Assembly: GCF_947495705.1 (NCBI RefSeq)
Contig: NZ_CANLZR010000015.1
Span: 1-53,016 of the forward strand
Direction: 5' to 3'
From: an uncultured Phycicoccus sp.
GTDB lineage: Bacteria > Actinomycetota > Actinomycetes > Actinomycetales > Dermatophilaceae
DNA: 53,016 bases
In this document: positions 32,766 to 45,389 of the stretch, in pieces
How positions within the stretch are numbered: position 1 is the stretch's first letter
Layout of the letters: each line of letters begins with the position of its first letter
Translations under genes and position numbers: made by a program
The notes under the pieces: model-generated
Database searches by the model: none
What the model was told of the DNA's origin: nothing
Seen by the model: the letters and a program-made list of their open reading frames with translations, nothing else

Positions 32766-35513
32766 TCAGCTGAAGTCGAGGTGCGCGAGTTCGGTCCGCG
32801 AACTGACGCCCACCTTGGTGAACACGTTGCGCAGGTGGAACGCGACAGTGCGCGGTGACACCCAGCACTGGGCCGCGACGTCCTTGTTCGACAGGCCGGT
32901 GCTGACCAGCTCGGCGACCTTGAGCTCCATCGGGGTCAGGGCGAGCAGGGTGGATGGGTCGCGTTTGCGGGCCGTTTCGCCGGATGCCCGTAGCTCTTGG
33001 GTGGCGCGCTCCGCCAGGGGTTTCGCGCCCAGGTCGGCGAAGGCGTCCAGCGCCGACCTCAGGTGGGTGCGGGCATCCACGCGACGGTTGGTGCGGCGCA
33101 GGAACTCCCCATAGGCGAGCTGGGTGCGTGCCAGGTCGTAGGGCCGTGACGCGTGCCGGTAGTGACCGACCGCACGCTCGAACCCCGCCGTTGCGTCCGC
33201 GTGATCGCGCGAGGTCAGGGCACGGCCCAGATCGACGGCGCCGAGCGCCCAGCCGTGCTGACTCTTGGTCGCGAACGGGGTCAGCTCGTCCACCCACGCC
33301 AGAGCCTGCTCTGTGTTGCCGGCGCGGACGGCCGCCTCGAGCCGATCGACGGCGGCCAGCCGGTGCAGGGCCGGCACGCGCATCCCCGACAGGTAGTGGA
33401 GTGCCCCCGGCGCGTCACCGTGCGCGGTGGCGTGGGCGCCCTTGGCCCACCGGGTGACGTCGTGCGTGGGGCCGGCCATGATGCCCAACGGGTACGTGGA
33501 CGCAACATCCTCGAACGCCGCGAGCTGGTGGTCGAAGTCGTCAGTACCGGTGAGCGCGGCCAGCAGGGTCAACACGGCCAATGGCGCGGCGGTCAGGGTC
33601 GGCTGTCCAACGCTGCCCGCCAACCTGAGGGCTTCGTCGGCGGAACTGCGCACTGATGTCCACGCGCCGGTGGGAAGCTGGCCGAACATGAGGCGCTCGA
33701 GGGCGTAGATGACGACCATGCCGGCACCAGCCTCGCGGGCGGTGGACACCATGGCGGAGTAGTAGAAGCGGGCTCCTTCGTCGTGGCCCAGGTGCAGAGC
33801 GGTGTTGCCGAGGTTGCCCATCACGTCCAGGTCCTCAACCTCGCGTCCAGCCTCCAAAGCCCGCGCCAGAGCGGTAGTGGCGCGGCCCCAGTCCTGCTCC
33901 CCGGAGGCGGTGAGGGTGCGCAGCAGCAGCCGCAGGCACCGTGTCCGAGGTGTGTCCTGATCGGTCGTGCCCAGCAGATGCGTCAGCTGGGACTCCCCGA
34001 GGGTTGCGCCGCTGTCGGCGCCGTACGTGCGGTTCAGGGCCGCGGCACAGGCCATCTCCAAAGCGCGCCCGCTGTCGTGGTCCGCGACCGTGCGAGCCGC
34101 GACCGTGAAGATGCGGTGTGCGTCCACGGCGGAGCCGACATTGACCTCGATCCGTGCCCGGAGACGGTCGATGTCGGCTCGCTGAAGGGGGTCGACCGTG
34201 AGCTCACGCGCTGAGGAGGCCAGCGCGCGGGCGCGGACCGCGTGCCCGGCCGCCCACGCGGTGCGCCCGGCTCCGAACAGTCGAGTGGCCCGATCCTTCT
34301 CGTTCACCGTCAGTGCGGCCGCCCGCTCGAATGCGTCGGCCGCAGCGAGGTGGCCGCCGCGTTGCTCGGCGCGAACAGCGACGTCGGCCAGGGCGTGGGC
34401 GACGTCCCCGTCAGGTCCGTCGGCTGCTGCGGCACGGTGCCATGTCGCACGGTCCGGGTCGTCGCGGCCGACCGCCTGGGCGAGGGCGCGGTGGGCTTGG
34501 CGCTGCTCGAAACTGGTCGCCGCCTGGTACACGGCTGACCGGACCAACGGGTGCCGCACCGCCACAGTGTCACCGCTGATCGTCAGCAGGTTTGACCGCT
34601 CAGCGTCCTCCCACGCGGTGGCGTCGGCGCCGAGCGTTGCGGCGGCTTGCCGGACGGTGGCGACCCGCCCGGTGGCGTCGGCCGCCGCGACCAGGAGCAG
34701 CGTCTGCACCTCCTGCGACAGGAGGCGGCACCGGTCCAGGAACGCGCGTTCGACGCCTGCGGTCAACGTGAGCTGTCGCGGCAGGGGCTCTTCGCCGTGC
34801 AGCTGGGCCGAGCTCAGCCCGGTGGGCAGTTCCATCAGGGCGAGGGGGTTTCCGCCCGTTTCGCGCAGCAGACGCTCCGCGACCTCACCCGGCAGCGGGT
34901 CCCCGCCGCGTTCGTCGAGGAGCTGGCGGGCCGCGTCGTCGTCGAGGCCGTGGATCTCGAGGACGGGCAGTCCCGGTGGGGCGAACGGTTGTCGGGTCGT
35001 GTCGCCGGTCCTGGCCGCGAAGACCATGGCCACCGGGTCCGCAGCCAGCTGCCGAGCCGCGAACAGCAAGGCGTCCGCCGATGCTGAGTCGAGCCAGTGC
35101 GCGTCGTCGACGACGCACAGCAGCGGCTGGTCGGGTTCCGCTGCGTCGGTCAGGGCGGACAGGGTGGCCACGCCGACGAGAAAGGGCTCGACCGTGGGTC
35201 CGTCCTCGACGCCGAACGCGAGACGCAGCGCGCGCGCCTGAGGGGGAGGGAGCCGGTCGAAGTCCAGGACGGGACGCAGCAGCCGGTGCAGCGCCGAGTA
35301 TGGCAGAGGTGACTCCGACTCGACCCCGGCGGTGCGAACCACCCGAAAGGTGCCGTCTTCACCGGCCTTCCGGGGGGTGGTCAGGTCCCGCAACAAGGCG
35401 GTCTTGCCAACACCGGGCTCTCCGAGCACAACCAGGACGGCACCGCGTCCGGTGCGTGCCTGGTCCAGCAACGCAGCAAGGCGCGCTTGCTCGGGCTCGC
35501 GGCCGTGTAGCAC
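32766..35513 (-). CDS. Large ATP-binding LuxR-type (LAL/MalT-like) transcriptional regulator
   Basis: 915 aa. LHGREPEQARLAALLDQARTG precedes Walker A GEPGVGKT at 31-38; Walker B is LLCVVDDAHWLD around 131-142; the middle is helical repeat sequence; the C-terminal LuxR helix-turn-helix reads LALTPMELKVAELVSTGLSNKDVAAQCWVSPRTVAFHLRNVFTKV. GTG 35513 is chosen over a longer ATG frame at 35585 because LAL proteins typically begin LHGRE, and the extra 24 codons would cover the conserved promoter box at 35555-35578. First island gene after tRNA-Asn; it is the best candidate to regulate the five boxed promoters. Confidence 0.88.
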   Translation of the reverse strand: MLHGREPEQARLAALLDQARTGRGAVLVVLGEPGVGKTALLRDLTTPRKAGEDGTFRVVRTAGVESESPLPYSALHRLLRPVLDFDRLPPPQARALRLAFGVEDGPTVEPFLVGVATLSALTDAAEPDQPLLCVVDDAHWLDSASADALLFAARQLAADPVAMVFAARTGDTTRQPFAPPGLPVLEIHGLDDDAARQLLDERGGDPLPGEVAERLLRETGGNPLALMELPTGLSSAQLHGEEPLPRQLTLTAGVERAFLDRCRLLSQEVQTLLLVAAADATGRVATVRQAAATLGADATAWEDAERSNLLTISGDTVAVRHPLVRSAVYQAATSFEQRQAHRALAQAVGRDDPDRATWHRAAAADGPDGDVAHALADVAVRAEQRGGHLAAADAFERAAALTVNEKDRATRLFGAGRTAWAAGHAVRARALASSARELTVDPLQRADIDRLRARIEVNVGSAVDAHRIFTVAARTVADHDSGRALEMACAAALNRTYGADSGATLGESQLTHLLGTTDQDTPRTRCLRLLLRTLTASGEQDWGRATTALARALEAGREVEDLDVMGNLGNTALHLGHDEGARFYYSAMVSTAREAGAGMVVIYALERLMFGQLPTGAWTSVRSSADEALRLAGSVGQPTLTAAPLAVLTLLAALTGTDDFDHQLAAFEDVASTYPLGIMAGPTHDVTRWAKGAHATAHGDAPGALHYLSGMRVPALHRLAAVDRLEAAVRAGNTEQALAWVDELTPFATKSQHGWALGAVDLGRALTSRDHADATAGFERAVGHYRHASRPYDLARTQLAYGEFLRRTNRRVDARTHLRSALDAFADLGAKPLAERATQELRASGETARKRDPSTLLALTPMELKVAELVSTGLSNKDVAAQCWVSPRTVAFHLRNVFTKVGVSSRTELAHLDFS

Positions 35514-35554: not shown

Positions 35555-35578
35555 CCCGGCACATTGACCGGGGCGAGC
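35555..35578 (+). promoter_or_regulatory. Island promoter box A (upstream of DJ-1-like gene)
   Basis: CCCGGC-ACATTGA-CCGGGGCGAGC, oriented toward the DJ-1-like gene; 65 nt separate it from the ATG at 35644. GACCGTGG follows at 35594-35601, 15 nt after the box. It also lies 41 nt upstream of the divergent LuxR start, so it could serve both. Confidence 0.7.
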
Positions 35579-35643
35579 CCTGCATCGAAGCGCGACCGTG
35601 GATTCACCGAGAGAACCCCACGCCGTTACCGAAGGATTCCGCC

Positions 35644-36276
35644 ATGACCTCGCTCACCGTCCCCGTGGGCCCCATCGCGCCCGCTACCACGAAGCACATC
35701 GGCATCCTGCTGTTCGACGACGTCGAAGAGCTCGACGCAGTCGGTCCGTGGGAGATCCTGTCCAACTGGACCCTCACCTACCCGCAGGACGGCTGGGCGG
35801 TCACCCTCGTCTCCAAGGACGGCCGTCCGGTACGCGCGGCCAAGGGCATGGTGATCGGCGCCCACCACTCGTTCGACGAGGTGCCACCGATGAGCGTGCT
35901 GATCCACCCGGGCGGGCCGGGTTCACGGGTCCTCATGCGCGACGAAGACCACCTCGCCTGGGTCCGCGGGCAGCGCGCGACCGTTCCGCTGATGACCAGC
36001 GTCTGCAGCGGCGCACTGGTGTACGCCAACGCCGGTGTGCTGGCAGGACGGCCCGCGGCCACACACTGGCAGTCCCTTGAGCTGCTGCACGAGCTCGATC
36101 CGTCGATCAACGTGGACTCGAAGGCCCGCTTCGTCGACGACGGGGACGTCATCACCAGCGCCGGGGTCAGCGCTGGCATCGACATGGCCCTGCACCTGGT
36201 CTTCCGGCTCGCCACTGCCGACCGGGCTCGTGCGGTGCGCAGTGACGTGCAGTACGACCCTCAGCCGCCGGTCTGA
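35644..36276 (+). CDS. DJ-1/PfpI family protein, isonitrile-hydratase-like
   Basis: 210 aa. The GATase1-like fold shows IGILLFDDVEELDAVGPWEIL at 19-39, HPGGPGSR at 88-95 and the nucleophile C121 in TSVCSGALVYANAGVLAGRPAATHW. The cysteine elbow followed by an A(A/T)THW segment is typical of isonitrile hydratases (InhA) and of the sensor domains of GlxA-type regulators; there is no AraC helix-turn-helix here, so a free enzyme is more likely. Hydration of isonitriles to N-formamides is therefore possible but not proven. GAAGGA precedes the ATG. Divergent from the LuxR regulator, with box A between. Confidence 0.82.
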   Translation: MTSLTVPVGPIAPATTKHIGILLFDDVEELDAVGPWEILSNWTLTYPQDGWAVTLVSKDGRPVRAAKGMVIGAHHSFDEVPPMSVLIHPGGPGSRVLMRDEDHLAWVRGQRATVPLMTSVCSGALVYANAGVLAGRPAATHWQSLELLHELDPSINVDSKARFVDDGDVITSAGVSAGIDMALHLVFRLATADRARAVRSDVQYDPQPPV

Positions 36277-36471
36277 TCATGCAGACGAGCGATCGCGGTC
36301 GGTGGCCTCGAGCGGCAGGCCGACCATGGTCTGGAGAGGGGGGCGAGGGGTTGGGCCCTGCGTTCAGCGGCGCCCCCCGTGAAGGGAGCTGCGTGGTGAC
36401 CAGGACTTCGAGGTTCTGGATGGCCCATCCGACTATTGCCTCGTCCGTCGCTGTTGGGCCACAGTCCTGCC

Positions 36472-37404
36472 ATGGAGTCGTGCGAGGTCCTGGTTGTGGG
36501 GGGCGGGGCTGCCGGCCTGTCGGCTGCCTTGGTGCTGGGCCGGGCTCGTCGAAGAGTGGTGGTGGTTGACGTTGGCGCCCCGCGCAATGCCCCAGCGGCG
36601 CACATGCAGGGGTTCTTGTCCCGAGACGGCATGCCGCCGGCCGGCCTCCTCCATGTCGGTCGCGATGAGGTCCGCGGGTATGGGGTGACCATCACCACGG
36701 GTTCCGTCAGCGAACTCGTCAAGACTGCTGCCGGGTTCGAAGCCCGCCTGGAGTGTGGTCAGCGGGTCGGCGCGCGCAAGGTCCTGGTCGCGACTGGCCT
36801 GCGTGACGAGCTGCCTGACATCACCGGTCTGCGCCAACGTTGGGGGACAGACGTGCTGCACTGCCCGTACTGCCACGGGTGGGAGGTGCGCGACAAGGCG
36901 CTCGGTGTTCTCTGGAACGGGCCGGACACCGCCCGGTTCGCCAACATCGTGCGGCAATGGACGAGTGACCTGGTTCTGTTTGCTCCTGACGACGTACTCG
37001 CTGAGGCGGACCGCCCGCTCTTGGCGGCCCGCTCGGTTCGCGTCGTCGAAGGTGGTGTCGACCGCGTCGTCGTCGAGAGCGACCACCTGACCGGGGTCCT
37101 GATGCGCGATGGTCGCACGGTAGCAAGGGATGCCCTCTTCGTGCCGCCGCGCCTTGTCCCCAATGACACTTTGCTCACCGGGCTCGGGTGCCTGACGGAC
37201 GACCTGGGTTGGGTGGTGGTGGGGGTCAACGGAACCACCAGCATTCCTGGGGTATGGGCCGTGGGCAACGTGAGCAACCCGCGGGCTCAGGTCATCACCG
37301 CTGCTGGCGAGGGGTCCGCTGCGGCCATCTCCATCAACGCGGACCTCGTCGACGACGACGTTCGTGAAGCCGTCCACGAGGTCACCCAGGTCGCCCCTCC
37401 CTGA
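36472..37404 (+). CDS. Thioredoxin-reductase-like FAD/NAD(P) oxidoreductase
   Basis: 310 aa, length of TrxB-type flavoproteins. FAD-binding VLVVGGGAAGLSAALVLGRA at 7-26, redox-like CPYCHG with C131/C134 and an IPGVWAVGNVSNPRAQV segment near the end that binds the flavin. Unlike true thioredoxin reductases (CATC motif) it has CPYC, found in a TrxR-like subgroup of uncertain partner, and the second dinucleotide fold lacks a clear GxGxxA. ATG 36472 is chosen because the conserved fold begins at residue 5. No island box precedes it, so it may be controlled separately. Confidence 0.83.
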   Translation: MESCEVLVVGGGAAGLSAALVLGRARRRVVVVDVGAPRNAPAAHMQGFLSRDGMPPAGLLHVGRDEVRGYGVTITTGSVSELVKTAAGFEARLECGQRVGARKVLVATGLRDELPDITGLRQRWGTDVLHCPYCHGWEVRDKALGVLWNGPDTARFANIVRQWTSDLVLFAPDDVLAEADRPLLAARSVRVVEGGVDRVVVESDHLTGVLMRDGRTVARDALFVPPRLVPNDTLLTGLGCLTDDLGWVVVGVNGTTSIPGVWAVGNVSNPRAQVITAAGEGSAAAISINADLVDDDVREAVHEVTQVAPP

Positions 37405-37500
37405 GCGGGAGACCCTGGTAGCCCTGCCGGCGTCGTTCTGTCACGGCGGGTTCGGCAGGGCGGGCGGGCGTTGAGATGCGGCTGGTGACGCCGACACCCA

Positions 37501-38472
37501 TCAGTCCTTAGGAATGATCACCACCTTGCCGCGAACCCTGCCGGCCTCGAGGAGGCGCATCGCATCCTTCGCGTGGGACAGCGGGTAGCTCTCCGCGATG
37601 CTCGGCGTCAGCTGCCCGGCCTGGAGGTGTTCGGCGAGGACCTGCAGGTCGCTGGCGCGTTCCTTGGCCATGAGCAGGGCGAGGCGCTGACGGACGAACA
37701 GCGACATCATCGCCCCGCGCAGCTGCCTGCCCATTCCGGTGATGTTGCCGGTGTTCTCGCTGCCGACGAAGACAACGGTGCCGCGAGGCGTGAGGGCGCG
37801 GCGCAGTCGCCGGAGGGAGGAGCCACCGCCGATGTCCAGGATGAGGTCGTAGTGGCGGGTGCCGTCGGCGAAGTCGTCGCGGTCGTAGTCCAGGACGTCG
37901 TCGGCGCCGAGGCTGCGGACGAAGTCGGCCTTGGCGGCGCTGGCGACCCCGGTGACCCGAGCTCCCAGGATCTTGGCGAGCTGGACGGCGTAGCTGCCGA
38001 CGCCACCAGACGCTCCGATGATGAGGACCTCCTGGCCGGCCCGGAGCTTGCCGACGTCTCGGAGTGCCTGCAGGGCGGTGCCGGCAGAGATGGGGACCAC
38101 GGCGGCTTGGGCGAACGTGAGGTTCTCAGGCTTGTGGGCGAGTTTGTTCTCGGGGCCGACCGCGTACTCGGCGAATGAGCCTGGGGCAACGCCGTAGACC
38201 TGGTCTCCGGCAGCGAACTGGGTGACGGCTGAGCCGACCCTGACCACGGTGCCGGCGACGTCCCGTCCGGAGATGGGCATCTTGGGTCGCCGCAGCCCCG
38301 TCGCCATCCGCATCGCGTAGGGCTTACCGGTCATGAGGTGTTCGGTACCGCGGTCTAGCCCGGCGGCGTGCACCTTGATGAGCACGTCGTGGTCGCCGGG
38401 CTCGGGGACGGCCACGTCGTCGACGCGCAGGACCTCGGAGCTGCCGTACCTGTCTTGGATGACTGCCTTCAT
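37501..38472 (-). CDS. Zinc-independent quinone oxidoreductase / MDR-family dehydrogenase
   Basis: 323 aa. MKAVIQDRYGSSEVLRVDDVAVPEPGDHDVLIKV is a standard medium-chain reductase start; VLIIGASGGVGSYAVQLAK is the NADPH-binding Rossmann loop and IGGGSSLRRLRRAL follows it. Structural zinc cysteines are missing, as expected for quinone or enone reductases. ATG 38472 has AGGAAG 8 nt upstream. It follows the MFS gene on the same strand (107 bp gap) and is probably read from the promoter at box B. Confidence 0.85.
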   Translation of the reverse strand: MKAVIQDRYGSSEVLRVDDVAVPEPGDHDVLIKVHAAGLDRGTEHLMTGKPYAMRMATGLRRPKMPISGRDVAGTVVRVGSAVTQFAAGDQVYGVAPGSFAEYAVGPENKLAHKPENLTFAQAAVVPISAGTALQALRDVGKLRAGQEVLIIGASGGVGSYAVQLAKILGARVTGVASAAKADFVRSLGADDVLDYDRDDFADGTRHYDLILDIGGGSSLRRLRRALTPRGTVVFVGSENTGNITGMGRQLRGAMMSLFVRQRLALLMAKERASDLQVLAEHLQAGQLTPSIAESYPLSHAKDAMRLLEAGRVRGKVVIIPKD

Positions 38473-38579
38473 GGTGACTTCCTGGTTGAGGAGGGAGGTG
38501 GTTGCGCTGCTGTTTCTCATGGTGTTCCTGTCTTTCACTGGTGGGTATGGCCTACCCGGATGGTCGGGTTGGGTAGGGG

Positions 38580-40004
38580 TCAGTGCCGCGCTCGGGCGAT
38601 GGTGGAGCCGAGGACAGCGGCGGTAAGGGCCACGGCGGCCGCGGCGGTGAACGCGGCAGCGAAGCCGGTCGTGCCGAGGGTTTGGCCGAGGGGACCGCTT
38701 GCGGAGATGCCGATGGCGGTGAAAGTGGCGGTGCCGAGGGCCGCGCCCACCTGGGTGGCTGACCCGGCGAGGCCGGACGCGAGGCCGGTGTGAGTGTCGG
38801 GCACTGCGCCGGCGATGACCATGGTCGTGGGGGTGAAGCTGAGGGCCACTCCGACGGCGACGAGGAGCAGGCCGGGCAGGACGGCGGTGAGGTAGCCGCT
38901 CGCGGTGGGTGCGTTGGCGAGCCACAGATGGCCGACGGCAAGGACGACGAGCCCGGCGACCAGACTGTGCTGCGGGCCAAGGGCGCGCACGATGCGCGGC
39001 AGCAGGCTGAGGGAGAACGCGAATCCGGCCAGGGAGGTGGGGACCATGGCCAGGCCCGCCTGTGCTGGCGCCATGGTGAGGGCCTGCTGCAGGTAGAGCG
39101 CGACGAGGATGAAAGTGGAGGCTCTTGCAGCGCCGCCCAGCACGGCGAGGCCGACGCCGGTGGTCAGGGTACGGGAATGGAACAGGTCGAGCGGCAGCAG
39201 CGGGTCGGCGGTGCGGCGCTCGATGCTGACGAACAGGGCGGCGAGTGAGGCGGACGTGGTGAAGGCGGCGATGACGGTCGGAGACGCCCAACCGTGGTCG
39301 GCGATGCCGAGGGCGCCGTGGACGAGGGCGACGACGGCGCCGGTGATGGTGGCGGCGCCGCGCCAGTCGAATCGGCGCCGGGTGCCGCCTCGGGCGCCTT
39401 CGGGCAGGAGGCGTCCGGCAAGGGCGACGGCGGCTACGGAGACGGGGACGGTGACGAGGAAGACGGAGGCCCAGCCGAACGCGCCGACGAGTAGGCCGCC
39501 GGCCATGACGCCGGCTGCGCCGCCGAGCGCCGACGCTGCGCCCCAGATGCTCATGGCGCGGGCTCGCGACTGGCCGCCGAACGTGAGCAGGAGCAGGGAC
39601 ATGGCGGCGGGGCTGAGTGCGGCGGCGCCGACGCCCTGGACGACGCGACCACCGACGAGCTGGGGCGCGCTGGACGCGGACGCCGCGAGGAGTGTGCCGG
39701 CTGCGAAGAGGATGGAGCCGCCCACGAGCAGGCGTCGGCTGCCGAACAGGTCCGCGGCCCGCCCGGCCAGGAGCAAGAGCCCACCGAAGGACAGGACGTA
39801 GGCGTTGACGACCCAGGTGATGGCAGTGGGCCGCAGGTCGAGGTCTGCCTGGATGGATGGCAGTGCCACGTTGACGATGGACGTGTCCAGCATGACCACG
39901 AACTGCGCGGACACGAGCAGGGCCAGGGCGGCCCAGCGGCCACCAGCGGTGTGTGCCCTTCCGGCGGTGCCGCTGCCGGTGGAGGCGGTGAGGGTGGTAG
40001 TCAT
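38580..40004 (-). CDS. MFS drug exporter (DHA2 family, about 14 helices)
   Basis: 474 aa integral membrane protein. The first helix is followed by LDTSIVNVALPSIQADL, the DHA2 motif; WVVNAYVLSFGGLLLLAGRAADLFGSRRLL gives motif A, and GRVVQGVGAAALSPAAMSLLL gives motif C-like glycines typical of antiporters. Long hydrophobic stretches indicate about fourteen helices. It probably exports a toxic small molecule by proton antiport. ATG 40004 has AAAGGA upstream, and box B lies 59 nt further up. Confidence 0.88.
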   Translation of the reverse strand: MTTTLTASTGSGTAGRAHTAGGRWAALALLVSAQFVVMLDTSIVNVALPSIQADLDLRPTAITWVVNAYVLSFGGLLLLAGRAADLFGSRRLLVGGSILFAAGTLLAASASSAPQLVGGRVVQGVGAAALSPAAMSLLLLTFGGQSRARAMSIWGAASALGGAAGVMAGGLLVGAFGWASVFLVTVPVSVAAVALAGRLLPEGARGGTRRRFDWRGAATITGAVVALVHGALGIADHGWASPTVIAAFTTSASLAALFVSIERRTADPLLPLDLFHSRTLTTGVGLAVLGGAARASTFILVALYLQQALTMAPAQAGLAMVPTSLAGFAFSLSLLPRIVRALGPQHSLVAGLVVLAVGHLWLANAPTASGYLTAVLPGLLLVAVGVALSFTPTTMVIAGAVPDTHTGLASGLAGSATQVGAALGTATFTAIGISASGPLGQTLGTTGFAAAFTAAAAVALTAAVLGSTIARARH

Positions 40005-40063
40005 GCGGGTTCCTTTGCTGGTGCTGGCGTCTGCGTGTTCCCACGGTCGTCGAGTGGGCGGTT

Positions 40064-40087
40064 GCTCGCCCCGGCGCAATGGCCGGG
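40064..40087 (-). promoter_or_regulatory. Island promoter box B (upstream of MFS gene)
   Basis: On the minus strand: CCCGGC-CATTGCG-CCGGGGCGAGC, pointing toward the MFS gene; 59 nt separate it from the ATG. GACCGTGGGAACACG follows 15 nt after the box (40048-40034). Here the outer halves form a perfect CCCGGC-N6-GCCGGG palindrome. Confidence 0.7.
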
Positions 40088-40348
40088 ATTGGCCGGCTGA
40101 CGGGCTGGAGGTTGACGGCGTGCGCCCGTGGCGTCGCTGACGGAGGTCACCTTCGGGGCACGGCCGCGGGGGCGCTCGTAGCCGGAGAATCGGCGGCAGT
40201 GAGGGATGTGCGGGCGCCGGCGACGCCAAGGGTCAGCAGGCAAGTGCGGCAGAGGCGACGGACAGGATCCGGTGAGGGAGGGGTCATCCATTCGAGTGCG
40301 CGGGTGCGCAGGCCCAGGGAGGCGGCGCGGGGGAGGAAGTAGTGGTCC

Positions 40349-40379
40349 GGAGCGGCCCGCCTCTGGGGCGGGCCGCTCC
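40349..40379. terminator. GC-rich hairpin beyond the membrane hydrolase gene
   Basis: GGAGCGGCCCGCC (40349-40361) and GGCGGGCCGCTCC (40367-40379) are perfect complements with a 5-nt loop. It lies about 115 nt after the stop of the minus-strand hydrolase. No T run follows on either strand, so termination is plausible, not certain. Confidence 0.5.
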
Positions 40380-40494
40380 CCGGGCCGCCGGCGCCGGTGC
40401 AGGATTGGGCGTCGCGAGCCTCGGCGGTCACCTGGAGGGGTGAGATGACCGGGAGCGGAGCTTCGAGACAGGTCTCGAAGGGGCGTGGCGGTGG

Positions 40495-41868
40495 TCATCG
40501 CGCGGTGACGGAGCCCTGGGTGCGGGTGGCGGTGACGACGTCGGCGATGGCGGTCACGGACTGAGCGGCACCGGTCGGGTTGTGGAGGAACCCGACGTGG
40601 TCCATCTCGGCGACGGTATGCCGGCTGTTGGTGGACAGGGCGGCCATCTGCTCCTGTGCTGTGGCCCACCCGGGCTTGGAGTCGACGTTGGCCTTGGCGG
40701 TGAGGACGACGAGCGGTCGGTCCCCCAAGCCGGTCATGGCCTGCGACTGAGCGAACGCCGTGGGCAGCTCGGCCTGCTCGGCGCGCTCGCCGGCCCAGCC
40801 GCGGGGGCTGTCCGCGAACGCTGCCGCCTGCCGGCCGGCGTTCCCGGGCAGGTCCGGGGCGCCCAGGGCCTGCATCAGGAGGCCGACACCGAAGCGGAAC
40901 AGGGTCGGCACGGCCGCGAGGCCCCGGCGCATGACCTGGTACTCGCCGTTGAACGACGTGACGACCTTGGCCTGGTTCGGGCTGGCGCTGTCGAGCAGGA
41001 CGAGCCCAGCCACCTGGGAGGGGTACAGGTGTGTGTAGGTCATGGCGTGGACACCCCCGGAGGAGTGTCCGACCAGGACGAACGGGCCGCTCTCACCGGC
41101 GACGGTGAGGAGCTCGTGCAGGTCGGTGGCGGCGGTGGTCGCGTCGCTCGGCTTCGACGAGTCTTCGCTCCAGCCCTGGCCTGCACGGTCGTACGCGCAC
41201 ACGCGGGTCTTGTCGCCGACAGGCGGAAGGACGCGCGCCCACTGGGGCGACGTCTCTCCGAGCCCGTTGAGCAGGACGACGGTGGGGGCGCCGGTGCCGA
41301 CGCAGTGCAGGTGCAGGCGGTACCCGCCCACGTCGACGAGCCGACCCGGCGCCGGACCCGTAGCGGTCTGGGGGTCACCGACAGCGACTTGGGCCACGCC
41401 ACCAAGCCCAGCCGCGACCACGAGGGCGGCGACGGAGTAGACCATGAGCCGGGCCACGCGGCGTGGCAGGTCACGACGGGTGCGCCACACGCTCCACAGG
41501 CCGAGCGCGACGAGCGCGGGCGCCCAGACCCACGGTAGGCGGCTCATCGCGGGCTCACCGGGGTCGAGCAGCGCCATGGCGGCGCCGCTGACGGCGAGAG
41601 CTGCCGCAGGCAGGTATGCCCACGTCTGTGGACGGTTGGTGTACCGGGTGGTGAGCGAGGCGAACAGGACCCAACCGGCGGCGAACGCAACGAGCGCCCC
41701 GCCGACGACTCGGGCCTCCGACGCCGACGGCAGCACGACGAACGTGCTGGCGGCGCCCGCGAGGGCGCCAGCGGACATGGACGCGAGGGTGATGCGGGCG
41801 AACGGGCCCGTCGGCGGTGCGGGCGGGCGGGTCGAGACCGGCATCGTGCTGGCTGTGAAGGTGCGCAT
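40495..41868 (-). CDS. Membrane-anchored alpha/beta hydrolase, paralogue 1
   Basis: 457 aa. Four to five hydrophobic segments occupy residues about 20-170 (ITLASMSAGALAGAASTFVVL, VVGGALVAFAAGWVLFASL, TWAYLPAAALAVSGAAMALL, LMVYSVAALVVAAGLGGVAQVAV), then a soluble hydrolase domain: VDVGGYRLHLHCVGTGAPTVVLLNGLG, YDRAGQGWSE and the nucleophile elbow GHSSGG with S269; the histidine is probably in MDHVGFLHNP. The catalytic domain is expected outside the membrane. It shares layout and many segments with 43971-45389. Box C precedes it by 70 nt. Confidence 0.82.
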   Translation of the reverse strand: MRTFTASTMPVSTRPPAPPTGPFARITLASMSAGALAGAASTFVVLPSASEARVVGGALVAFAAGWVLFASLTTRYTNRPQTWAYLPAAALAVSGAAMALLDPGEPAMSRLPWVWAPALVALGLWSVWRTRRDLPRRVARLMVYSVAALVVAAGLGGVAQVAVGDPQTATGPAPGRLVDVGGYRLHLHCVGTGAPTVVLLNGLGETSPQWARVLPPVGDKTRVCAYDRAGQGWSEDSSKPSDATTAATDLHELLTVAGESGPFVLVGHSSGGVHAMTYTHLYPSQVAGLVLLDSASPNQAKVVTSFNGEYQVMRRGLAAVPTLFRFGVGLLMQALGAPDLPGNAGRQAAAFADSPRGWAGERAEQAELPTAFAQSQAMTGLGDRPLVVLTAKANVDSKPGWATAQEQMAALSTNSRHTVAEMDHVGFLHNPTGAAQSVTAIADVVTATRTQGSVTAR

Positions 41869-41938
41869 GGTGGTCTTCCGGTTCCTGGCCGTCCGGTGCG
41901 GTCGGCCACACACCCCACGGTCGCGGTGGACGCTGGTC

Positions 41939-41962
41939 GCTCGCCCCGGTCACATGGCCGGG
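41939..41962 (-). promoter_or_regulatory. Island promoter box C (upstream of membrane hydrolase 1)
   Basis: Minus strand: CCCGGC-CATGTGA-CCGGGGCGAGC, pointing at the hydrolase; 70 nt to its ATG (41868). GACCGTGG follows after 16 nt (41922-41915). Divergent from box D, 74 bp away. Confidence 0.7.
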
Positions 41963-42036
41963 ATTGCGCGCCCGTTTCCGGCGACTGCTCCCGCTCGGGT
42001 CGGCGCGCAGGAGAGGGTCTGTTACGCGGACTCGAA

Positions 42037-42060
42037 CCCGGCCACTTGACCGGGGCGAGC
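42037..42060 (+). promoter_or_regulatory. Island promoter box D (upstream of HD protein)
   Basis: CCCGGC-CACTTGA-CCGGGGCGAGC, pointing at the HD gene; 70 nt to the ATG at 42131. The downstream element is poorly conserved here (GACACAGT at the comparable position). Confidence 0.68.
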
Positions 42061-42130
42061 CCGTGCGTCGCGTGACACAGTCGAAGTCTGACAACGACAT
42101 TGCGGGCCCGTGCCCAGGACCGGATGAGAG

Positions 42131-42901
42131 ATGACGATGAACGTCGAACCGACGCTGGGAACCATCGACTGGAGTCGCCGCACCGGCGGCCGACTGGAGC
42201 GCGGGCAGCGACGAGGGCTGCTGGCCGACGTCGTCCGGGTCCATGCGGCCAACGCGGTCGGGCGAGTGCGCCTGGCCGTGCACCTGCACCCGGGACGCAA
42301 CGCCCACCTCGCGCCGTCGCGCCTGCTTGCGCCCGACTCGGCCCTGACCCGAGCGGCGACGCACGCCGCCACCCGCGTCCTCCCATCGGTTCTGCTGGGG
42401 CACAGCCATCGCACGTACACGTTCGGACGCGCACTCGGCGAGCTCGAGGGCATCGACGTCGACACCGAGTTGCTGTACGCCGCCGCGCTGCTGCACGACA
42501 CGGGCCTTGTCCTCGCTGCGGGTACCGACGACTTCACCCTGGCGTCCGCGCGGGTGGCATGGGACGTCGCAGAAGAGGTCGGCCTGTCCACAGCAGCCAC
42601 CGAGACGCTGCAGACGGCCATCACCATGCACCACAGCCCCCACGTCACCCCTGACGCAGGCCCCGTCGCGTACCTGCTGTCCGCAGGCGCTGGGGTCGAC
42701 GTTGTTGGTATCCGTTCCTGGGATTTGCCCACAAGCGTCCTCGATAGCGCGGTGACCGACCACCCGCGCGAGGGGTTCAAGAAGTACTTCGCCCGGGCGT
42801 GGGCGGACGAAGCCGCCCGGGTGCCTGAAGGCCGGGCTCGCCTGCTTCGCCAGTACGGGGCTTTCACCACCGCCGTCAGGTTGGCCCCGTTCGACGAGTG
42901 A
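42131..42901 (+). CDS. HD-domain protein, cyanamide-hydratase-like
   Basis: 256 aa. HSHRTYTFGRALGELEGIDVDTELLYAAALLHDTGL (H91/H93 and H122/D123) is the HD metal site in the spacing and wording found in cyanamide hydratase-type proteins; TAITMHHSPHVTP supplies further histidines and AYLLSAGAGVDVVG completes the helical core. The family includes enzymes adding water to cyanamide to give urea, but also uncharacterised HD proteins. The N-terminal 70 residues are less conserved and may hold an extra domain. Preceded by box D; a second in-frame ATG lies two codons downstream. Confidence 0.72.
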   Translation: MTMNVEPTLGTIDWSRRTGGRLERGQRRGLLADVVRVHAANAVGRVRLAVHLHPGRNAHLAPSRLLAPDSALTRAATHAATRVLPSVLLGHSHRTYTFGRALGELEGIDVDTELLYAAALLHDTGLVLAAGTDDFTLASARVAWDVAEEVGLSTAATETLQTAITMHHSPHVTPDAGPVAYLLSAGAGVDVVGIRSWDLPTSVLDSAVTDHPREGFKKYFARAWADEAARVPEGRARLLRQYGAFTTAVRLAPFDE

Positions 42902-42926
42902 CCGGACCCGTTCAACCTGACTGGAT

Positions 42927-42950
42927 CCCGGCCGTTGTGCCGGGGCGAGC
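42927..42950 (+). promoter_or_regulatory. Island promoter box E (upstream of CPBP protease)
   Basis: CCCGGC-CGTTGTG-CCGGGGCGAGC, pointing at the CPBP gene; 68 nt to the ATG at 43019. CAGGGTTGGGAACACG follows after 15 nt (42966 onward) and shares TGGGAACACG with the element after box B. Confidence 0.7.
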
Positions 42951-43018
42951 GGTCTGCCGGACGAGCAGGGTTGGGAACACGAGAAGGCGGACTCAGCTCT
43001 CTCGCATCCTGAACGGAG

Positions 43019-43900
43019 ATGACGGCCATGACCCTTCTGGACAGCCTGCAGCCCGCGACCACGACGAACACCACGCGTCTGCAGGGCCGCGACAGCTGCC
43101 GCCGGAGGCGGCTGGTCGAAGCAGTCGCCTTTGTGGCGGTGTGGATGACGATCGGCTACCTGTTCCGGCTGAGTGCCAACGGCTACCTCTTGCTGGGTGT
43201 CCCGCTCACCGCCGTGTTCCAGCTCGCGGTGCGGCGCCGCCCGCTGCGCGAGCTGTTCGCGGGTGACACCAGTCGGTTCGCCCTGAGCCGTCGTGGCGTG
43301 GCCATGGCGATGGTGCTGGCCGTCGTCCCGGTGTTCTACGCGATCCAGGCGGCGGCCGCCGCCGACTGGACCTTGTTCGGTTGGAACATGGCCGCTGTCG
43401 CCGGCGCGGTTGCAGCAGCCTTCTCGCTGCGGGCCGGCACCGTCCTCGGCGCGCTGCGCTCGGCAGCCTTGCCGATCGCCATCGGGGCGAGCGGATTTGC
43501 GATCGTGTTCGGCATCGTGCACGTGGTGACCGGGACGCCGCTGCCGGCGCTGGCGGCGTTGGGCGCCCTGGTCAAGTACACCGCCTTGTACTTCCCTGCC
43601 ACGTTCCTGCTGGAGGAGGTCGCGTTCCGTGGAGCGCTGGATGCGCACCTGCATCACAGCGGCGACTCACGTGGCTGGCAGTCCGCGGTCTTCGTCTCGG
43701 CGCTGTGGGGGCTGTGGCACCTGCCCGTCTCATTGGTGAACCTGCCCCTGCCGCTGGTGGTCGCCGAGCTCGTCGTCGTCCATGTCCTGCTCGGCGTTCC
43801 GCTGTCGTTTGCCTGGCGGAGCAGCCGGAACCTGGCCGGACCGGCTCTGGCGCACGCAGTGAACGACGCCGTCCGCAACGCCGTCATGATCGGGCTGTAG
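43019..43900 (+). CDS. CPBP-family intramembrane glutamic endopeptidase
   Basis: 293 aa, about eight membrane helices. The three conserved motifs of CPBP (ABI, Rce1-like) proteases are present: EEVAFRG at 199-205 (catalytic glutamates and arginine), the histidine in SALWGLWHLP near 235, and AHAVNDAVRN near 279-288. Members cleave membrane proteins or act in bacteriocin self-protection. ATG 43019 follows GGAG; a second ATG is three codons on. Preceded by box E, so it belongs to the island regulon. Confidence 0.88.
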   Translation: MTAMTLLDSLQPATTTNTTRLQGRDSCRRRRLVEAVAFVAVWMTIGYLFRLSANGYLLLGVPLTAVFQLAVRRRPLRELFAGDTSRFALSRRGVAMAMVLAVVPVFYAIQAAAAADWTLFGWNMAAVAGAVAAAFSLRAGTVLGALRSAALPIAIGASGFAIVFGIVHVVTGTPLPALAALGALVKYTALYFPATFLLEEVAFRGALDAHLHHSGDSRGWQSAVFVSALWGLWHLPVSLVNLPLPLVVAELVVVHVLLGVPLSFAWRSSRNLAGPALAHAVNDAVRNAVMIGL

Positions 43901-43970: not shown

Positions 43971-45389
43971 TTACCGAGCCAGCGGTTGGTTGCTCCGAAC
44001 GGCTGCGACCACGTCAAGGATCGCCTGGGTCGTATTGGCTGCGTCGGCCTCGTTCGCGACCAGCTCCGCGTGGGCGGCCCCTTCCACGGTGCGGTGCGAG
44101 GTGTTGGTCGACAACGTGGCCAGCCGGTCCTGCTTGGTGGACCAGTCGGGGGCACTGCCGACGCCGGCCGTCAGCACCACGAGTGGCGTCGCGGCCAGGT
44201 CCGTGAGTGACGCGGCCTCCCGAGCCGAGGCGCCGGCCTGGATGTACTCATCGATCGTGCTGCGCACACCCTCTGGCGTTGCCATGCTGGCTCGGACCTG
44301 GCCGCGCGAACGCGGTGGCAGTGTGCCGGCCTCGGTCGTCGCGTACAGGCGGCTCAGTCCCACGCGGGCACTGCCCGAGAGCAACGCCGAGGCCCGGCCC
44401 AGCACGTCATACGAGCTCGCGGAGCGGGGCGCGGTCGGGGTCGCACCCGGGGTCGGTGCCGTTGAGTCGACGAGCACCATCCCGGCGACGTCGTCGGGGT
44501 AGCGGGCGGCGAAGGTCAGCGTGTAGAGCCCTCCGAAGGAATGCCCGGCCACCACGTACGGCCCTGGCACGTTCGCGCGTTGCAGCAGGGTGTGCAGGTC
44601 GGCCGATATCTGCTCGGCGTCCTGGGCGGTGTCCGCCGGCTCGCTCCACCCTCGACCTGCCCGGTCGTACACGCACACCCGGGTGGTGCGGGCCACGGCT
44701 GGTGCGATCCAGGCCCAGTTCGAGGACATCTCACCACCGCCGGGTTGGACCACGACCGTGGGACTGCCTGACCCGGTGCACTGTAGGTGCAGTCGGTGCC
44801 CGTCAACCGCGAGCAGCTGGCCGGGCATCGGGTAGGCCCTGGCATCGGCAGCGGCGCCCAGGGCCTGGTAGACGCCCCCGACGGCAGCGAGAGCCAGCAC
44901 GACCAGCACCGGGTACAGCAGCACCCTCCCGCTGCGACTGTGCAGGTCTCGACGCACTCGGACCACCATCCACGCCACCATGGCCAATAACACCGGCGGC
45001 CACACCCAGCTGAGCACGCCGGTGGTCCAGGAGCCGAAGGCCAGAAGAAGCAGGCCACCCACCCCCATGAACACCGACGGGACGAGGGCCCACCGCTGCG
45101 GTTGATCGGTGAAGCGCACCGAGAACACCGCCAGCATCGCCCAGCCCAGAGCAAACCCACACAGCAGCGCGCCGGTCATGCGGGGTTCCTGGGCGGGGAC
45201 CACCGGGATGAACGCCAACAGCAGACCGCCGAGAAGGCCGGCGACCAATGAGCCCGCAGTGACCCGGCCGATGTGGCCTCGAGGGTCCCCGCCATCGGCC
45301 GCCAGCTCCGACCCGCTCTTCCCGTGCATCGGTGCGGGGGTCGTGGGGCTACCAGGTGCGGTCGGGACAGTGGCCACAGCGGACTCCAT
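43971..45389 (-). CDS. Membrane-anchored alpha/beta hydrolase, paralogue 2
   Basis: 472 aa with the same plan as 40495-41868: four to five N-terminal helices (VTAGSLVAGLLGGLLLAFIPVV, ALLCGFALGWAMLAVFSV, WALVPSVFMGVGGLLLLAFG, LLYPVLVVLALAAVGGVYQAL) and a hydrolase domain with LLAVDGHRLHLQCTGSGSPTVVVQPGGGEMSSNWAW, YDRAGRGWSEP and elbow GHSFGG; MVLVDSTAPTPGA follows. The substrate is unknown. No copy of the island box lies in front of it, unlike paralogue 1. Start ATG 45389 (MESAVATVPTAPG); the first 30 residues are disordered. Confidence 0.82.
   Translation of the reverse strand: MESAVATVPTAPGSPTTPAPMHGKSGSELAADGGDPRGHIGRVTAGSLVAGLLGGLLLAFIPVVPAQEPRMTGALLCGFALGWAMLAVFSVRFTDQPQRWALVPSVFMGVGGLLLLAFGSWTTGVLSWVWPPVLLAMVAWMVVRVRRDLHSRSGRVLLYPVLVVLALAAVGGVYQALGAAADARAYPMPGQLLAVDGHRLHLQCTGSGSPTVVVQPGGGEMSSNWAWIAPAVARTTRVCVYDRAGRGWSEPADTAQDAEQISADLHTLLQRANVPGPYVVAGHSFGGLYTLTFAARYPDDVAGMVLVDSTAPTPGATPTAPRSASSYDVLGRASALLSGSARVGLSRLYATTEAGTLPPRSRGQVRASMATPEGVRSTIDEYIQAGASAREAASLTDLAATPLVVLTAGVGSAPDWSTKQDRLATLSTNTSHRTVEGAAHAELVANEADAANTTQAILDVVAAVRSNQPLAR

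Follow-up and report, generated by a model that had tools for sequence, protein, structure and literature searches.

We analyzed a 53,016-nt stretch of DNA from an uncultured Phycicoccus sp. (contig NZ_CANLZR010000015.1; the whole stretch is referred to as the window) and propose that a 24-bp box repeated five times in it is the operator of the LAL-type LuxR regulator encoded at 32766-35513 of the same window. In this proposal, which we hold with high confidence, the LAL protein would turn on a set of efflux and detoxification genes by class II activation, in a manner similar to MalT. A first-pass annotation of the window had listed five exact boxes, each oriented toward a gene, and assigned them to one promoter/activator class that controls five transcription units. 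All five coordinates and strands were reproduced, and the assignment to a single class is strongly supported by the boxes in front of orthologous genes in other genera, by the -10-like element that follows every box, by the lack of any further box with a -10-like element in the genome, and by the co-occurrence of the box with the LAL gene. The fixed geometry, the conservation and the co-occurrence can all be read from the DNA itself.

The pattern CCCGGC-N7-CCGGGGCGAGC has five exact matches in the window. As predicted operators, box 1 (35555-35578, + strand) precedes the gene of a DJ-1/PfpI-family protein, box 2 (40064-40087, -) that of an MFS transporter, box 3 (41939-41962, -) that of an alpha/beta-hydrolase, box 4 (42037-42060, +; divergent from box 3) that of an HD-domain protein, and box 5 (42927-42950, +) that of a CPBP protease. 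With the start codons of the first-pass annotation, the distances from the box end to the start codon came out as they had been given there (65, 59, 70, 70 and 68 nt for boxes 1 to 5). When the whole genome of 3,536,935 bases was scanned with the strict pattern, the five window boxes were the only exact matches, and the reversed control had none. When the pattern was loosened and the -10 letters were added to it, the same five boxes alone were returned, again with no match in the reversed control. The shorter box without the -10 letters gave one extra match in the genome (C8:97513), which lacks the -10 letters since the looser pattern did not return it. The first-pass annotation had asked for such a genome scan and named many random or intragenic copies as the outcome that would speak against its proposal; the scan revealed none beyond the five. 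Within the window, the shortened box with up to one mismatch occurs five times, compared with a mean of 0.51 in shuffled sequences, and none of 100 shuffles reached five. The full form of the box with up to three mismatches was uninformative (9 in the window vs a mean of 6.66).

Each box is followed by a -10-like element: GACCGT at 35594-35599 (+), 40043-40048 (-) and 41917-41922 (-) in promoters 1 to 3, CACAGT at 42076-42081 (+) in promoter 4, and CAGGGT at 42966-42971 (+) in promoter 5. These elements share the letters A-N3-T, with the A at 17 nt past the box in promoter 1 and at 17 or 18 nt in the other four. A second element had been noted before, at 15-16 nt past the box and in two alternative words. 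While a constant downstream element indeed exists in all five promoters, the two words do not represent it: GACCGTGG is found 15, 15 and 16 nt past boxes 1, 2 and 3, respectively, and TGGGAACACG 20 and 21 nt past boxes 2 and 5, and because these distances differ, they are not one element at one distance.

We then searched 18 stretches of related genomes, taken around LAL genes or earlier box matches, for CCCGGY-N7-CCGGSGYGARC with up to one mismatch and with no requirement for a -10. The search yielded 37 matches, 35 of them distinct, and none in the reversed control. In all 35 distinct sites A-N3-T follows the box, at offset 17 in 18 sites and at offset 18 in 17 sites, and for all other pairs of neighbouring offsets as far as 53 the count is at most 3 of the 35. 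The A and the T correspond to A(-11) and T(-7) of the bacterial -10. Within the box, the four pairs of the palindrome CCGG-N8-CCGG are intact in 33, 34, 35 and 35 of the 35 sites. Assuming a transcription start 7 nt beyond the T of the -10, the palindrome would be centred at -42.5 or -43.5. At the -35 position, 17-18 bp from the -10, the sites have GSGYGA, which is a poor match to a -35; the GCGAGC tail of the box falls there. These alignments refine the earlier description of the box and suggest that the operator core is the palindrome CCGG-N8-CCGG, with the GCGAGC tail at the -35 position. A matrix of the box only, built from the related-genome sites and used at a threshold of 19, found 46 sites in 20 stretches, every one with the -10, and none in reversed sequence.

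A palindrome over the -35 region would also suit a repressor, either the LAL protein or an unlinked dimeric repressor, which would block the -35 region from the box, and the LAL protein SCO6993 is described as a negative regulator in the part of its literature that was accessible. However, both the -35 and the -10 are poor matches, as fits a promoter that needs help, and the MalT-type LAL protein of Actinoplanes at this position is an activator according to the accessible part of PMC7567727. We thus regard repression as quite unlikely and favor activation by the LAL protein.

If the LAL protein acts at the box, the two should be found together. Among 184 genomes of the family, 17 have a LAL match at E<=1e-100 and 10 have a box with the -10; eight of these 10 are among the 17 (Fisher p 3.6e-8), and the reversed control was positive in 1 of 184. 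The 22 LAL matches listed divide by identity: at least one matrix site with the -10 was present in the fetched stretch for all 13 LAL proteins of at least 44% identity, and no site at threshold for any of the nine of 36-41% identity. Outside the family, a search of the order with the LAL protein alone matched 3 of 297 genomes including the window's own, and the LAL genes of the other two (58% identity in G606; 56%, partial, in G702) both have sites with the -10 nearby. The class was scanned by pattern, and 4 of 393 genomes matched besides the window's own (G219, G548, G480 and G534). In G548 and G219 the boxes adjoin orthologous genes. At the end of the box contig of G548 lie the first 136 residues of a LAL protein (54%), and in G219 a full-length LAL protein of 56% identity was found, after its box, on another contig, where two further sites (23.9 and 23.4), both with the -10, stand beside the LAL gene.

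Matches to the box by itself are less selective. The shorter pattern matched 62 of 186 genomes of the family, and because the reversed control matched 29, single matches of this kind were not used. In G155, G176 and G050 the matched letters resemble the window boxes, and these loci contain orthologues of the hydrolase, HD, CPBP, MFS or quinone-reductase genes of the window, many of them preceded by a box. Since the gene order differs among the box loci, the conservation is not a mere lack of divergence. An exact-pattern scan of genome contigs returned at least 117 stretches from many phyla, nearly all with a single match. Of the loci up to L089 that lack an evident reading frame across the match, one was judged real, L060 of Humibacillus xanthopallidus, a species placed by NCBI in Intrasporangiaceae. 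Among the 11 other genomes of the genus, the strict scan gave single matches in two (G002 and G006), and no LAL protein was found in any of the 11 at E<=1e-100 with four candidates scored per genome, which suggests that the island was probably acquired. With respect to neighbours, clustering placed an MFS family in 14 of 15 LAL loci (the filter missed that of the window, which is present by Pfam), and no other regulator family was seen among the 9 gene clusters common to at least 4 of the 15 loci. Two shared clusters that initially had no name are ABC and FtsX/MacB transporters.

The same data bear on the possibility that the box together with the letters downstream of it serves as -35 and -10 in promoters for an alternative (extracytoplasmic function, ECF) sigma factor, with the palindrome being incidental. 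Such promoters would agree with the fixed spacing, with a G-x-GA that never varies at the -35 position and with the absence of T(-12) from most of the -10 elements. On the other hand, the symmetric CCGG-N8-CCGG, each pair of which is intact in 33-35 of 35 sites, extends beyond any -35 by about 15 bp on the upstream side. Of the 15 sigma factor matches in the window's genome (G000), 12 were listed, and none of these lies on contig C15; nor was a shared sigma neighbour seen in eight genomes among the matches listed. Two of the listed sigma factor genes lie near boxes, one in G176 (about 4.6 kb to the nearest box) and one in G134 (about 8 kb to a box). The co-occurrence is with the LAL gene. We regard an ECF sigma promoter as very unlikely, and the LAL protein remains the preferred partner of the box.

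The LAL gene (32766-35513, -) was assigned from Pfam matches (AAA_16, 1.1e-20; GerE, 4.5e-15), from its orthologues and from a structural model. The GTG start is favored because a VLHGR start is common to the six closest LAL proteins. The 915-aa product has an N-terminal AAA/STAND-like ATPase domain with the Walker A motif GEPGVGKT, helical repeats, and a C-terminal GerE (LuxR) helix-turn-helix at residues 858-911; the Walker A motif, the C-terminal helix-turn-helix and the large size are those of the LAL family. In a Foldseek search with the AlphaFold model (pLDDT 85.9, pTM 0.61), the STAND-TPR structure 6mfv ranked first (E 1.3e-10) and the maltose-system entry 8bob chain C, which we take to be MalT, ranked third (E 3.8e-7), with low whole-chain TM-scores of 0.19-0.37. 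The model shows a MalT-like STAND/TPR architecture. The protein is not MalT proper: it scored 28.8 bits against the NCBIfam MalT equivalog model NF003420 (cut-off 537), and in place of GGGGA(T/G)GAGG boxes the sites have the core CCGG-N8-CCGG with GSGYGA as the right flank. In several loci the LAL gene has boxes on its flanks that face outward, and it is therefore not obvious that a box drives the LAL gene. The genome also encodes a second LAL protein (C5:203374-206076) of 36% identity, with no matrix site in the 5.7 kb around it.

The LAL proteins with sites differ in the recognition helix, which reads TVAFHLR in group A (Ala) and T[VI]DFHLR in group B (Asp). Of the 22 group-A sites, 21 have C at base 7 of the box and 16 have G at base 12; of the 16 group-B sites, 14 have G at base 7 and 10 have C at base 12. 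The group-B sites include a weak one in G117 (16.2, below the threshold of 19), and the counts leave out L185:6196 and L183:6970 (two mismatches each), L230:112 and L230:10167. In an alignment with ChrA and EL222, which are related proteins, the Ala/Asp residue corresponds to the Lys of their TVK, a position that contacts bases in NarL. In G606 and G702, which both have Ala, all 4 sites have C7 and 3 of them have G12. In a tree, group A and G606 form one clade (100/99). The group-B boxes precede genes for HMA-domain proteins, a heavy-metal P-type ATPase, MFS, GNAT, flavin and uncharacterised proteins. We tentatively suggest, at somewhat less than even odds, that STAND-type LAL activators have split into insulated regulator/operator pairs, Ala with CCGGYCA and Asp with CCGGYGA half-sites, in which the two halves tend to change together; G155 keeps both pairs. 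Each pair might drive a DHA2-type efflux pump as a common core, together with a different detoxification set, i.e., quinone reductase, DJ-1 and hydrolase, or HMA chaperone-like proteins and a heavy-metal P-type ATPase, from promoters that would be activator-dependent because their -10 is without T(-12). Another reading, in which a structured 5' leader or a repeat element, and not a site for a transcription factor, would account for the shared sequence, is extremely improbable, even though CCCGG and CCGGG could pair in RNA. Against it stand the change of the inner box bases between LAL groups, the lack of any further box with a -10 in the genome, and the position of the -10-like element downstream of the box, which would leave the box outside the transcript.

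As a separate observation, boxes of the second LAL group precede genes of small HMA-like proteins in L190 (G155), L187 (G160), L186 (G029), L189 (G125), L191 (G134) and L192 (G117). In the proteins of G125, G134 and G117, A(V)CGHC stands at the metal-binding motif GMTCxxC and the first Cys context is missing, which suggests a changed ligand.

Several observations weigh against the box being the operator of the LAL protein, or limit the tests of that proposal. T(-12) is found in only 2 of the 35 sites, which is odd for a promoter of the main sigma factor, and beyond offset 53, in or near coding sequence, pairs of neighbouring offsets have A-N3-T in up to 6 of 35 sites. Most matrix tests used loci that had also supplied the matrix, and L214-L216 came from a pattern already containing the -10. 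The LAL search in the family scored only four candidates per genome, for 7 of the nine distant LAL proteins the scan covered no more than about 1.5 kb of flank, and weak sites lie just under the threshold of 19 near distant LAL genes in G051 (17.2) and G179 (18.1). The exact boxes of G002 and G006 were not matched when the -10 was required. In the class scan the reversed pattern matched 5 of 394 genomes, equal to the true pattern with the window's own genome included, so single matches in the class are meaningless without related neighbours; G480 and G534 have no related genes within 3 kb of the box. G154 has a box with the -10, yet its LAL proteins are only 30-40% identical, have other recognition helices and have no site beside them. 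G043 has a single family match with no LAL protein at E<=1e-20 and no related gene in 3 kb, and this match may be due to chance. The shared-gene screen missed the LAL gene itself in 3 of 15 loci, so that a small regulator could escape detection. As for the base-7/12 code, the three sites of G219 (Ala) are mixed (base 7, C, C and A; base 12, G, C and G), G548, whose helix is not on the contig, has G12 in both of its sites but C7 in one and G7 in the other, and since the Ala/Asp and base changes occur once on the tree, their statistics are not independent. The matches in L159 of G043 were rejected as candidates; they are one palindromic repeat and show no match to the regulon proteins.

Downstream of box 1, the DJ-1/PfpI-family gene (35644-36276, +; Pfam 4.1e-23) is followed by a gene for a thioredoxin-reductase-like FAD/NAD(P) oxidoreductase (36436-37404, +; Pyr_redox_2 8e-19; TIGR01292 77 bits, below the cut-off of 343), and the two possibly form one transcription unit. 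Unit 2 consists of the DHA2-type MFS efflux transporter gene (38580-40004, -; MFS_1 1e-43; the LmrA and EmrB-type models both below cut-off) and the gene of a quinone-oxidoreductase-like (PIG3-like) protein (37501-38553, -; ADH_zinc_N_2 8.9e-26; TIGR02824 183 bits, below the cut-off of 297). A fusion of these two in an 847-aa open reading frame (37501-40044) was rejected, as they occupy two separate frames with clean Pfam matches. The remaining units contain the alpha/beta-hydrolase gene (40495-41868, -; Abhydrolase_1 1.8e-17 at residues 195-304 of 457), the HD-domain gene (42131-42901, +; Pfam HD 1.5e-7), the product of which is weakly cyanamide hydratase-like (TIGR03401 40.9 bits, below the cut-off of 109.85), and the CPBP (Rce1-like) membrane protease gene (43019-43900, +; Pfam 7.6e-12). 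Export and detoxification would be the theme common to the regulon, and its genes look suited to defence against a toxic small molecule that is perhaps redox-active. The gene ABH2 (43971-45389, -) encodes a paralogue of the hydrolase behind box 3; no box was seen upstream of it, and its closest match (66%) is in L158 of G050. In G154, the box (L214 9034-9057, -) precedes a heavy-metal P-type ATPase gene that lies next to a DJ-1 orthologue (69% identical).

GerE class II activators of the NarL/DevR type can bind as dimers to a palindrome near -42/-43. Their helix-turn-helix is of the same family as that of the LAL protein, while they are two-component receivers and the regulator here is a large ATPase protein. 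A close precedent is MalT (ACSP50_3915) of Actinoplanes sp. SE50/110, for which the accessible part of PMC7567727 describes the operator TCATCC-N5-GGATGA, a 17-bp palindrome upstream of 17 start sites around malT, with its 3' end 34.4 +/- 1.0 nt before the start and overlapping the -35; the role of this MalT was examined by deletion and overexpression. As far as that account goes, both systems have a MalT-like LAL protein, here a proposed activator, inside the region that it controls or would control, and a gene order that varies between species; the genetic layout matches, and so would the geometry, with the start positions here predicted from A-N3-T. They differ in that the operator here is CCGG-N8-CCGG with a GCGA tail and other spacing, in that the system here is known from sequence alone, and in that its genes encode efflux, redox and membrane proteins. 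The E. coli/Klebsiella MalT, with the box GGGGA(T/G)GAGG as cited in PMC7567727, is, as proposed for the LAL protein here, an activator with an ATPase and a LuxR-type helix-turn-helix whose box overlaps the -35. By the motif given there, GGGCGA in the right half of the present box shares 4 of 6 letters with GGA(T/G)GA; unlike that box, the present one has no GGA(T/G)GA hexamer and has inverted CCGG halves instead. The Streptomyces SARP-LAL regulator also has a LAL-type part in a large regulator, but according to the accessible part of PMC5930380 it binds heptameric direct repeats, in contrast to the inverted repeat here. The first-pass annotation knew of no described operator with the sequence of the box, and our literature searches, in which coverage of subscription papers was limited, found none in print. 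Judged from the accessible portions of these sources, the LAL class II activator is a kind already known, and the operator, the regulon and the paired protein/DNA change appear to be new.

We propose that the LAL protein, by analogy with MalT, would be ATP-bound and triggered by a ligand, and that a dimer of its GerE helix-turn-helix domains would bind the palindrome CCGG-N8-CCGG. With the palindrome centred near -42.5/-43.5, the bound LAL protein would overlap the -35 region (GSGYGA), and it may then recruit RNA polymerase with the main sigma factor to a -10 in which A(-11) and T(-7) are retained but T(-12) is mostly absent. The five units would thereby be switched on together: the MFS transporter with the quinone reductase, DJ-1 (perhaps with the flavin reductase), the hydrolase, the HD protein and the CPBP protease. 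In this scheme we infer activation rather than repression, the binding as a dimer, the type of sigma factor and the inducer.

LAL regulators are a poorly studied family, as stated in the accessible part of PMC3282765, and few of them have a defined operator in the literature we searched. Here, the predicted operator, promoter geometry and regulon and the matching difference in protein and DNA are borne out in genomes outside the family. This opens the regulator class to direct tests, and the GC-rich promoter and its proposed activator are a candidate orthogonal pair. The Ala/Asp exchange would be a clear specificity switch if the base-7/12 code is correct.

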